A stretch of 64,000 nt of DNA from Uliginosibacterium gangwonense DSM 18521 (GTDB lineage: Bacteria > Pseudomonadota > Gammaproteobacteria > Burkholderiales > Rhodocyclaceae): contig NZ_KB892837.1 of the NCBI RefSeq assembly GCF_000373965.1, positions 124,904-188,903 on the forward strand. The letters are read 5' to 3'. Of this stretch, positions 46,080-47,900 are shown piece after piece. Under the pieces are notes generated by a model, which saw only the letters and a program-made list of their open reading frames with translations, had not been told where the DNA came from and searched no databases. Each line of letters opens with the position of its first letter. Positions within the stretch are counted from its first letter, which is position 1. Made by a program: the position numbers and the translations under genes.

Positions 46080-46742
46080 CTGTGAACAGGCCCTAGTCAG
46101 TGCGGAACAGTTCGATGTCTGGATGCGGCCGGAACGAATGGGATGAGGCAACTCAGGCGTCTGGCATTGATCAGGGCAAAGATCGCGCTCAACGCGGCCC
46201 GTGGCAATTGCGTATCGGGGGCACTGGCTGATTTCGCTACGCAAGATATGGGCTGTATATCGCGCCCCTCGCCCATCAACACGCCGCAAAACCTCAAAAA
46301 TCTCTGGCGCCGTGATTTCAGTCATCGGGCGAGGTCTCTACCAAGGGATCGCGTCCTTATTCATCCGGGCAAAAGCCTTGAGGTATTGGCCTTCCACTAC
46401 GGTACTTCCTTTGTGCTCCAGCCACTCCAGGCAGATGACTTCAAAAGAATTGGCTGCACGCCCTTCTATGGCCCGCTTTTGGGCTTTGCGTTGCTCGCCC
46501 GGATCACCCCCCTTGTGCAATTAACTTGCGGGCCTGATCGCGCCGCTCTCGGGCATTTTTCAGCCCCACCTCTGGATAAACTCCAAGGGAGAGCGTTTTG
46601 CACGTACCGTAAACCGATAATCTAGCCACCACCATTTCGACCCATTGGGGTTCAACAAGAGATAAAGCCCTTTCTCATCCAACAGCCTTTGCGGCTTATC
46701 GGTAGGCTTTGCGTTACGAATAGCCGTGTCAGTAAGTGCCAT
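46080..46742 (-). pseudogene. P4-type tyrosine integrase remnant
   Basis: The N-terminus MALTDTAIRNAKPTDKPQRL and GLYLLLNPNGSKWWWLDYRF are typical of P4-family integrases. A frameshift near 46590 moves the next piece (SLGVYPEVGLKNARERRDQA) into another frame, which runs through QGGDPGEQRKAQKRA and NSFEVICLEWLEHKGSTV and stops at IPW. A third frame holds TEITAPEIFEVLRRVDGRGARYTAH and ISQCPRYAIATGRVERD. The catalytic R-H-R-Y domain is absent, so it is dead. It lies 143 bp past the tRNA-Leu 3' end and points away from it, as expected for an island integrated there. Confidence 0.85.
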
Positions 46743-46884
46743 GACAGTAACTCCTGTGACAGTGGACGACTTACTGTCGGATTGCAACGGTTTTACTCGG
46801 AACACTCTGGGCGTAAAAAAGCCGCAACCCTTGATTTATATAGGTGTTACGGCCTTCTCTGGACTGCTTTGGAAGTGTTCTTAA

Positions 46885-47185
46885 TGCGCCCAGCCGGAAT
46901 CGAACCGGCATGACCAAAGGTCGAGGGATTTTCTTACCACTTCGGCTTTTGCCGCCATGCCAAGGCATGTTCGTGGTCTGGACTTTGTCTTGGCCATGGC
47001 CCCAAGGGGGCTACAGGCCGGCGCCGTCAAGTCTCTGCACGTTCCCATTGCTGGGCTTCGCTCAGCGTTGCCTCGCCTAACGGCAGGGGGTTCGCTGAAT
47101 TTGACGCCATTCACACAGGCACTTTCGCCTCCTGGTGCTCAAATTGTTTTAAGTCCCTTGTGTCTACCTATTTCACCATGGGCGC
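46885..47185 (-). tRNA. tRNA-Leu(UAA) interrupted by a group I intron
   Basis: Exon 1 (47151-47185, 35 nt) and exon 2 (46885-46932, 48 nt) join to an 83-nt class II tRNA. The acceptor is GCGCCCA/TGGGCGC (7 bp) with discriminator A73. The D arm contains AATAGGTAGA. The anticodon stem is AGGGA/TCCCT (5 bp) around the loop CTTAAAA, giving anticodon TAA. The variable arm is GACC-TTT-GGTC, and the T arm is GCCGG-TTCGATT-CCGGC. CCA is not encoded. The intron sits after the first anticodon base, the same place as in cyanobacterial and plastid tRNA-Leu(UAA). The 3' end also appears to have served as an integration site. Confidence 0.93.
46933..47150 (-). ncRNA. Group I self-splicing intron (218 nt) in the tRNA-Leu anticodon loop
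   Basis: The intron begins AAAACAATTTGAGC and ends in G. Core pieces in order on the minus strand are: GAG of the internal guide pairing with exon CTT (U-G at the 5' splice site); GCGTCAAATTCAGCGAA (P3/P4 region); CAACGCTGAG (P4/P5-P6 side); GTGCAGAGACTTGACGGC (P7/P3' region, GTCAA pairing with TTGAC); AAGACAAAGTCCAGA (P7' and P8 region); a CATGCC/GGCATG hairpin; and GGC/GCC before the 3' end. These match the order and wording of the Azoarcus and Anabaena tRNA introns as I remember them. No homing endonuclease frame is present. Confidence 0.92.
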
Positions 47186-47208
47186 ATAGTCGATTATTAT
47201 CGCATGCT

Positions 47209-47900
47209 ATGCGCCTTCTGGGAACCCGCTTTGCGCGTAGCAACGTATCAAAGGCGTGCAATTTGATGGGCTTGTCCCTGGACACCTTCTCTCGCTACCA
47301 GAATTCAGTTGCCGAAGGCAGCGTCGAGGCTCTGTTCGATAGCAACCGGCGTAAGCCGAACCCAAAGAATCGGGTGGAGGAAGCCACAGAAACGGCGGTT
47401 CTCGCCTACGCCATCAAGCAACCCGCTCACGGGCAAGTGCGCACCAGCAATGAACCGCGTCAGCGGGGCATTCTCGTTTCGCCATCTGGTGTTCGCTCCA
47501 TCTGGCTACGCAATGATCTGGCCTCCTTCACAAGCAGCGCCCGGCTGCTTTAGAAAAGCAGGTGGCTGAGCAAGCCATCCTGCTGACCGATGCTCAGGTG
47601 GCAGCGCTGGAGCGCAAGCAGAACGATGACGTGGCTCATGGTGAGATCGAAACCGTCCATCCAGGCGATCTCGAGTCACAGGACACCTTTTATGACGACA
47701 CCCTCAAAGGCGTTGGCCGGATCTATCAGCAGACCTTCGTCTATACCTCTACAGCAAGGTCGCCATAGCCAAGCTCTATATGACCAAGACGCCGATCACT
47801 GCGGCCGATTTACTCAATGACCGCGTCTTGCCATTCTTTGAGGGGCACGTAAGGAGCACGGCATGGGCATAATCCATATGCTGACCGACCGTGGCACAGA
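47209..47900 (+). mobile_element. IS481-family transposase remnant (plus strand)
   Basis: Transposase sequence is spread over at least three frames. The first holds LLGTRFARSNVSKACNLMG, NPKNRVEEATETAVLAYAI and GVRSIWLRNDLAS. The second, after a shift near 47553, holds VAEQAILLTDAQVAALERK and TLKGVGRIYQQTFV. Then come AKLYMTKTPITAADLLNDRV and GIIHMLTDRGTEYW, where the catalytic Asp-containing DRGTEY is reached and the sequence ends. The C-terminal third is missing. It abuts the opposite-strand remnant next to it. Confidence 0.75.

Follow-up and report, generated by a model that had tools for sequence, protein, structure and literature searches.

In Uliginosibacterium gangwonense DSM 18521, the gene for tRNA-Leu(UAA) is confirmed to be split in its anticodon loop by a predicted self-splicing group I intron. 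The gene lies in a window of 64,000 nt (the whole stretch of DNA that was analysed, on contig NZ_KB892837.1 of assembly GCF_000373965.1). From comparison with related genomes, it appears rather probable that the gene was acquired sideways and replaced a native intronless tRNA-Leu(UAA), that it most likely came in as the tRNA by which an integrative element makes good the host gene it breaks, and that its intron shields this spare copy.

In the mechanism proposed here, the element would recombine into the anticodon loop of the host tRNA-Leu(UAA) at the core CTTAAAATC, breaking the host gene, and would bring in another tRNA-Leu(UAA), complete and preceded by an upstream region of its own. The group I intron would split the core in DNA, so that the spare copy is no target for the integrase of the element, and splicing would restore the anticodon loop in RNA. 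The insertion into the host tRNA, the complete tRNA carried along, the core split in the carried gene and the core made whole in the predicted RNA can all be read from the DNA of relatives, whereas the shielding of the spare tRNA from the integrase is what we infer from this arrangement.

The split tRNA-Leu(UAA) gene and its intron

The gene occupies positions 46885..47185 on the minus strand, as do all the parts named below. Its 5′ exon (47151..47185) ends with U34 (..GGGACTT), the group I intron of 218 nt (46933..47150) closes with a terminal G at 46933, and the 3′ exon (46885..46932) begins with A35 (AAAATCCC..). The limits of the gene (47185..46885), the intron size and the insertion after U34 had been given correctly by the first-pass annotation, which also held that the spliced tRNA folds with anticodon UAA. 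Indeed, ARAGORN, when run with the intron option, calls the 83-nt spliced sequence tRNA-Leu(taa), with a class II fold and the loop CTTAAAA; the intron thus separates U34 from A35, and its removal leaves a tRNA-Leu(UAA). No CCA is encoded (..GGGCGCA is followed by TTA). When the intron option was omitted, ARAGORN made no call for the split tRNA-Leu(UAA) in the window, and cmscan at the gathering threshold returned no match there. Genes of this kind, overlooked here by tools in their default settings, may thus be missing from many annotations.

Under permissive settings, the intron matches the whole of the Rfam model RF00028 (Intron_gpI) with 43.5 bits and an E value of 9.7e-10 (1.6e-9 genome-wide), and it is the sole RF00028 match listed for its genome by permissive cmscan. 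The Infernal search that had been proposed as a check gave a full-model match at a score under the gathering score of 50 bits; this cut-off is a database rule and not a structural one. On the opposite strand of the 3′ part of the tRNA, at window positions 46884-46955 (+), a match of 28.5 bits to Plastid-ycf2 (RF04354) was also observed, perhaps because antisense tRNA sequence is part of that model. At 218 nt, the intron leaves no room for an endonuclease gene, in agreement with the earlier statement that it has none. Its alleged closeness to the lower size limit finds no support, as 147 Leu(UAA) introns (3 duplicates) span 206-739 nt with a median of 228.

A secondary structure running from P1 to P9b was drawn on the window sequence, with P7 as a pseudoknot and the register of P3 taken from RNAalifold, and was examined in a MAFFT alignment of 16 Leu(UAA) introns, namely that of the window and relatives from the tree or from a BLAST list. 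In P1 (47138..47153), the exon bases CTT and the intron start AAA pair with TTTGAG, placing a U-G wobble (47151 with 47140) at the 5′ splice site; this wobble and the terminal G are both present. P2 (47112..47137) as well as P4 and P5 (47062..47098) were placed by structure and alignment. The 5′ strand of P3 (47103..47108) pairs with 47025..47020, the 3′ strand at 47020..47025 following the RNAalifold register, with both-side changes in 3/6 pairs. P8 (46992..47019) has such changes in 2/4 stem pairs. The 5′ strand of P7, GACTT (47029..47033), pairs with AAGTC at 46985..46981 (3′ strand, 46981..46985), and P9 with its P9a and P9b hairpins covers 46936..46977. The core helices P3-P8 and the P7 pseudoknot are therefore all represented.

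All 63 drawn intron pairs are standard pairs in the window sequence, and, once P3 had been put in its corrected register, pairing was kept in 96.4% of 1004 cells across the 16 aligned introns; in a control in which the partners were slid by 1-3 columns, only 34-39% were paired. Both-side changes affect 23 pairs and 72 cells, whereas 500 shuffles averaged 11.4 and 18.9 and never reached any of the measures. Pairing is poorest on the loop side of P1, at 79.7% of cells, partly on account of misplacement by MAFFT. At the splice site, the alignment has U-G in 12 introns, C-G in 1 and an unpaired position in 3 (again in part a misalignment). The last P7 pair is U-A in the window intron and in that of locus L074 and A-U in the other 14/16, a change that, read from the alignment, is compensatory. 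The earlier description of a group I intron with its core pieces is borne out by the RF00028 match, the 63 standard pairs and the covariation, and the window precursor is predicted to be spliced.

Elements inserted in the tRNA-Leu(UAA) of relatives

Elements were sought in 297 genomes of the family with a junction pattern which makes no use of the intron (CTTAAAAYC-N5-TGTCAARTC, one mismatch). The pattern occurs in 8 of these genomes, each time (8/8) in the anticodon loop of tRNA-Leu(UAA). A complete tRNA-Leu(UAA) with an intron of 226-233 nt at 34/35 is present at 7/7 readable element ends, while the eighth runs off its contig. Set against 6 cases with and 135 without the intron outside elements, this gives a Fisher p of 6e-9, a rough value because the elements are related; the 7 ends are one element family and not independent. 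The baseline also leaves 148/297 family genomes unclassified, and its 135 intronless cases were assigned by pattern with up to 3 mismatches, 13 of the genes being fully read (5 of them in congeners). They are the 140 pattern genomes minus 5 junction halves (G028, G057, G070, G152 and G153); one of the intronless pattern matches, G218, has an odd 3′ stem.

Permissive cmscan (E up to 0.1) reported the intron in 3/7 element loci (L304, L309 and L310) with 28-36 bits, below gathering, and listed no RF00028 match in L305, L306, L307, L311 or L198. On the strength of 82-88% identity to the insert of L304, those of L305, L306, L307 and L311 are counted as group I introns. TrbI is encoded in 5/8 junction loci, none of them much longer than 3 kb. 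In the two single-contig genomes, G248 and G088, the host tRNA resumes with its other half 33.0 and 28.4 kb away, respectively, and the joined flanks are called as an intronless tRNA-Leu(taa). In both, the core is found at the two ends only and on neither strand elsewhere in the element, and the far end encodes a tyrosine integrase of 400 aa that has an Arm-DNA-bind_3 domain. The same pattern gave no second host-tRNA half in the other genomes tried. In IMG/VR, 14 junction-pattern matches were considered as elements and rejected; they have no tRNA half and look like chance matches.

A broader set of 232 loci was used for the assignment of host tRNAs, from which 23 loci without an ARAGORN intron call and L148, to which no rule applied, were dropped; the duplicates L195, L204 and L226 were removed from the half-tRNA, T-arm and core counts. 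One tRNA body recurs in 12 Leu-intron loci of several orders. Flanks of up to 7.6 kb are common to records of Burkholderiales and Lysobacterales at 88-99.9% identity, as in Ottowia and Stenotrophomonas (7.6 kb, 89.9%) or in Eoetvoesiella and Dokdonella (5.9 kb, 99.6%). In L198, genes for DUF2274, TrbI, CagX (TrbG), VirB8 (TrbF) and TrbL proteins adjoin the tRNA, and TrbI was matched in 22/150 loci, L198 included; as the DUF2274 frame of L198 overlaps the tRNA, loci matching DUF2274 alone were excluded from this count.

Upstream of the complete tRNA, a host 5′ half ending in ..GACTTAAAATC or ..GGTAGACACAGCGGACTTAAAATC is followed by element DNA; by its sequence, this half stems from a host tRNA-Leu(UAA) that was severed in the anticodon loop, where the insertion core CTTAAAATC lies. 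One trb locus, L260 (Sphingobium), is at a CTTAAAATC outside any tRNA. A host 5′ half is present 156-298 bp upstream in 28/147 non-duplicate Leu loci, and none of the 28 has a T-arm; an inverted 3′ half is present in 4/147, and neither half was found downstream in any. In the control set of intact intronless genes, the T-arm was present in 13/13 and an extra half in 0/13. The status of a half was judged by this T-arm test and not by stem pairing, which is confounded. The core is whole in 147/147 spliced Leu sequences as compared to 1/147 genes (L128), a difference that largely follows from the rule by which hosts were assigned. Taken together, these observations suggest that Tn4371-type conjugative elements insert in the anticodon loop of the host tRNA-Leu(UAA) and carry a complete replacement tRNA-Leu(UAA).

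The four inverted 3′ halves of tRNA-Leu(UAA) (L266, L254, L227 and L170) lie about 165-195 bp from the intron-bearing tRNA; L266 is near a terminase-like gene, which falls under the Pfam cut-off, and loci of this kind are possibly prophages. For another tRNA, a layout similar to that of the Leu elements was seen: in 3/49 tRNA-Ile(CAU) loci (L056, L059 and L079), a tRNA-Ile(CAU) half stands 150-220 bp upstream of the intron-bearing tRNA-Ile(CAU), and the gene ahead of this half is one that we take to be rpoD-like.

Origin of the gene in U. gangwonense

The genome is a draft of 5.02 Mb in 35 contigs with a completeness of 100. All of its 48 tRNA matches were read and no second tRNA-Leu(UAA) is among them, in answer to the earlier suggestion that an intact copy be looked for; the list is also without tRNA-Ile(GAU) and tRNA-Ala(UGC), so that the draft is tRNA-incomplete. 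The tRNA-Leu genes with CAA, CAG, GAG and UAG anticodons are present. A search of the genome with the tRNA-Leu(UAA) of a congener returned only the split gene and four short matches. By the decoding rules, UUA codons should here be read by the spliced tRNA-Leu(UAA) alone. If the proposed mechanism is true, an essential tRNA of U. gangwonense would depend on a ribozyme of foreign origin. Most of the tRNAs listed for the genome have an encoded CCA; besides the split gene, tRNA-Leu(CAA), tRNA-Arg(CCU) and, from the look of its tail, tRNA-Gln(UUG) seem to be without one.

An intronless tRNA-Leu(UAA) was matched in 5/7 congeners, and no match was obtained in G002 and G003. The congener bodies have the acceptors GCCCGGG or GCCCGGA and an encoded CCA. 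The spliced tRNA of the window is 73-78% identical to the five congener tRNAs, whereas the other four are 89-96% identical to that of G001. Its nearest bodies, at 91%, are those of Leu-intron tRNAs of L164 and L189 (Variovorax and Hydrogenophaga records), beside trbI. In G001, G004 and G005, the tRNA-Leu(UAA) gene is within about 1 kb of minD; U. gangwonense has kept minC and minD, but ARAGORN found no tRNA in the surrounding 10.5 kb. The window and the congener tRNA-Leu loci share nothing at E 1e-8, and with L298 the window has only the gene itself in common (312 bp, 84.3%). The tRNA thus looks foreign to the genus, as far as the congeners that gave a tRNA-Leu to compare are concerned (G002 and G003 gave none), and the native copy is absent from the draft assembly. 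Unlike the window gene, 142/147 Leu-intron genes encode CCA.

On the 3′ side, a remnant of the N-terminus of a tyrosine integrase (46560..46742, minus strand; Arm-DNA-bind_3, E 2.5e-10) starts 142 bp after the tRNA 3′ end and runs for 60 codons to a stop. On the 5′ side, a transposase-like HTH_29 domain (47236..47391, plus strand; E 2.7e-12) lies in the open frame 46957-47553, which in our reading is a broken transposase. Integration at the 3′ end of the tRNA would explain both the integrase remnant and the missing CCA.

The core is split in the window gene and restored in its spliced tRNA, a weak indication, as almost every tRNA-Leu(UAA) interrupted behind U34 would show the same. The searched parts of the U. 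gangwonense genome and of the window contain no tRNA half, core or junction, and beside the tRNA only the integrase remnant and the transposase-like fragment were found. With no broken half and no transfer or phage genes beside the tRNA, the locus was not filed as a current member of the element group. Its intron falls outside the clade of the trb-element introns, to which it is 66-70% identical, and four of its better matches are tied to an inverted half (L170, L227, L254 and L266, the tree holding only L170 and L254). The locus was graded as a probable relic of such an element because the tRNA is foreign, no native copy was found, the core is split and an integrase remnant is present, but neither half nor junction remains and the intron belongs to a different branch.

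Among the other explanations that were weighed, acquisition of the whole intron-bearing gene by ordinary means (island, plasmid, phage or IS), with the intron as a neutral or selfish passenger that shields nothing, is considered unlikely, although there are points in its favor: an intron-bearing tRNA-Leu(UAA) is also carried by a resistance plasmid, a tRNA-Leu(UAA) with a long insert occurs in a 595-kb phage genome, and the integrase remnant beside the window tRNA would fit such a history. Against it stand the 7/7 readable ends of elements found by a pattern blind to the intron, all of which have it exactly in the attachment core, and the association (p 6e-9, from related elements and a rough baseline). 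Ancient vertical retention, in which the intron would be old in the family and lost by the congeners, is quite improbable. Leu(UAA) introns do occur in several genera of the family, but the window exons are unlike those of the five congeners, the gene is in a different place from theirs and the intronless gene was matched by pattern in 135/297 family genomes. Of the two origins offered by the first-pass annotation, transfer therefore gains support from the deviating tRNA body and the lack of synteny with congener loci, whereas ancient retention fits poorly with five congeners that have an intronless tRNA-Leu(UAA) of different body.

Movement of the intron alone, by reverse splicing or recombination into a resident tRNA-Leu gene, would find a parallel in introns of the same kind after U34 in tRNA-Ser(UGA) and tRNA-Thr(UGU); as the exon body of the window gene itself differs from the type of the five congeners read, this course is very improbable. 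It is hardly credible that the gene has decayed and is no longer spliced while a functional copy escaped detection: the draft is in 35 contigs with some tRNAs not found, and P7 departs from the common form, but the exons give a tRNA fold, none of the 63 intron pairs is broken and the P7 change is compensatory.

Sideways acquisition of an element's replacement tRNA is the reading preferred here for the window, and it may be extended. Bacterial group I introns of tRNA anticodon loops in general may be kept as attachment-site shields, and the resident ones, perhaps including the Azoarcus tRNA-Ile ribozyme, may be relics of elements (conjugative ones, perhaps also prophages) that break tRNA-Leu(UAA) or tRNA-Ile(CAU); we regard this wider proposal as evenly balanced between right and wrong. 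If true, a relic origin would explain the intron position, the spread without homing endonucleases and the patchy distribution. In this context, there would be a testable reason for group I introns to sit in anticodon loops and to spread without endonucleases: they would keep a rescue tRNA safe from the very integrase by which the first one was broken.

Known systems and distribution of the introns

The tRNA-Leu(UAA) introns of cyanobacteria and plastids lie between U34 and A35 and belong to subgroup IC3. The window intron resembles them in gene and small size; the host lineage differs, and the window intron groups with proteobacterial Leu introns in a tree that was built without cyanobacterial sequences. 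The Azoarcus tRNA-Ile(CAU) intron has the same small architecture as the window intron, but it is located after U36 of another tRNA, and two introns of this type are 57-61% identical to that of the window. Three introns of the same genus as the window (L033-L035), presumably of the Azoarcus tRNA-Ile(CAU) type, are near the window intron in the tree with a support of 82/83, which is not firm. A gammaproteobacterial tRNA-Leu intron was reportedly described by Vepritskiy in 2002. As far as the accessible text of the sources goes, the tRNA-Leu(UAA) group I intron is common to cyanobacteria and plastids in gene and position (PMC4033280), and the known bacterial tRNA group I introns include the cyanobacterial one in tRNA-Leu(UAA) and those in tRNA-Ile2 of Acidovorax and Burkholderia (PMC4033280, PMC8450103, PMC3984707).

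It has been reported that, in actinobacteriophages, a tRNA broken by integration is rescued by an element-borne tRNA (Guerrero-Bustamante and Hatfull 2024, PMC10865867). According to the parts of that paper available, this tRNA-dependent lysogeny has in common with the present case the integration in a short tRNA core that breaks the gene, its targets including tRNA-Ile2(CAT) and tRNA-Leu(CAA); it concerns phages of Actinobacteria, in contrast to the conjugative elements of Proteobacteria described here, and the word "intron" appears there once, in the reference list. For archaea, there is the idea of Randau and Soell that an intron in a tRNA gene stands in the way of integration, and a case of introns gained through a mobile element has been described (Sugahara 2012, PMC3293823). 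There too, judging from the portion of the paper at hand, a tRNA intron interrupts the attachment site, but the archaeal introns are spliced by protein and come with an attP-derived part of the tRNA, in contrast to a ribozyme that is borne by a replacement tRNA of its own.

Tn4371-family ICEs carry trb transfer genes (PMC2789088) and are stated to have tRNA-Leu as main target, at tRNA-Leu 3′ ends (PMC9960961), while some Tn4371-like elements have their att site given as TTTTTCAT; these statements come from partial texts. ICEKKS102Tn4677, with 9-bp direct repeats GATTTTAAG, is placed upstream of a Gly-tRNA gene in the consulted part of PMC11448139. Read in reverse complement, these repeats give the core CTTAAAATC, so that the elements in relatives have both trb genes and core in common with the family. 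The word "intron" is absent from the available text of PMC11448139 and PMC9960961. Bacterial tRNA group I introns, element-borne tRNA rescue and the blocking of integration by archaeal introns are thus already known; among the literature matches listed, in which subscription journals are thinly covered, no title or abstract joined a replacement tRNA and the blocking of integration with a group I intron.

Within the family, RF00028 was matched in 33/297 genomes with 37 matches, of which 7 are in tRNA-Leu(UAA) at 34/35, 24 in tRNA-Ile(CAU) at 36/37 or 33/34, 3 in tRNA-Ser(UGA) and 2 in tRNA-Thr(UGU), all at 34/35, and 1 is without host at a contig end. Within the class, 56/369 genomes gave 70 matches; tRNA-Leu(UAA) is the host of 15, with that of the window excluded, and 20/67 fetched loci were left without an assigned host. 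Both counts are underestimates, as the family scan missed 6/7 readable element introns. The named pattern scan yielded at least 118 matches, at least 116 of which are tRNA-Leu(UAA) intron genes, mostly of beta- and gammaproteobacteria; the genera among the listed matches include Achromobacter, Cupriavidus, Variovorax, Ottowia, Pseudomonas, Stutzerimonas, Lysobacter and Stenotrophomonas, among others, and a few are labelled Planctomycetia, Blastocatellia, Chloroflexi, Desulfobulbus and Sphingobium. The first view, that an intron of this sort is out of place in a betaproteobacterium, therefore finds no support, and taken by itself that of the window is nothing unusual within a proteobacterial set that is widespread. 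The cyanobacterial-type pattern gave no match in viral contigs.

The tree contains 135/211 introns, near-copies and introns of more than 330 nt having been removed. The nearest relative of the window intron is L074, within L298, with 82.7% identity. Jumping of introns among Leu, Ser, Thr and Ile tRNAs was considered and set aside; the tree has 10 host changes, the least possible being 7, but AU tests of one clade per host tRNA gave p 0.08-0.23 and did not reject single-host clades. In the parts of the literature consulted, tRNA-Thr and tRNA-Ser are not named as bacterial hosts of group I introns. Such introns were also observed in tRNA-Thr(UGU) at two positions (34/35 in L032 and L076; 36/37 in L085, L087, L090 and L093), in tRNA-Ser(UGA) (L057, L063 and L069) and in tRNA-Lys(CUU) (L096).

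Part of the window pre-tRNA matches 1269/72,556 plasmid records and 625/5426 Escherichia coli genomes, in neither case over more than 80% of the query; Mycetohabitans accounts for 7 of the 25 plasmid matches listed, and the gene was read in L279 only. On this resistance plasmid (NC_004464.2, 61823-62121), an unannotated tRNA-Leu(UAA) interrupted by a group I intron of 213 nt is located in the vicinity of aac(3)-IId and ISCfr1. In an uncultured phage genome of 595 kb (LR756511.1, L281), where cmscan listed no intron, a tRNA-Leu(UAA) has a 700-nt insert, and its 3′ part is 83% identical to the window gene over 72 positions.
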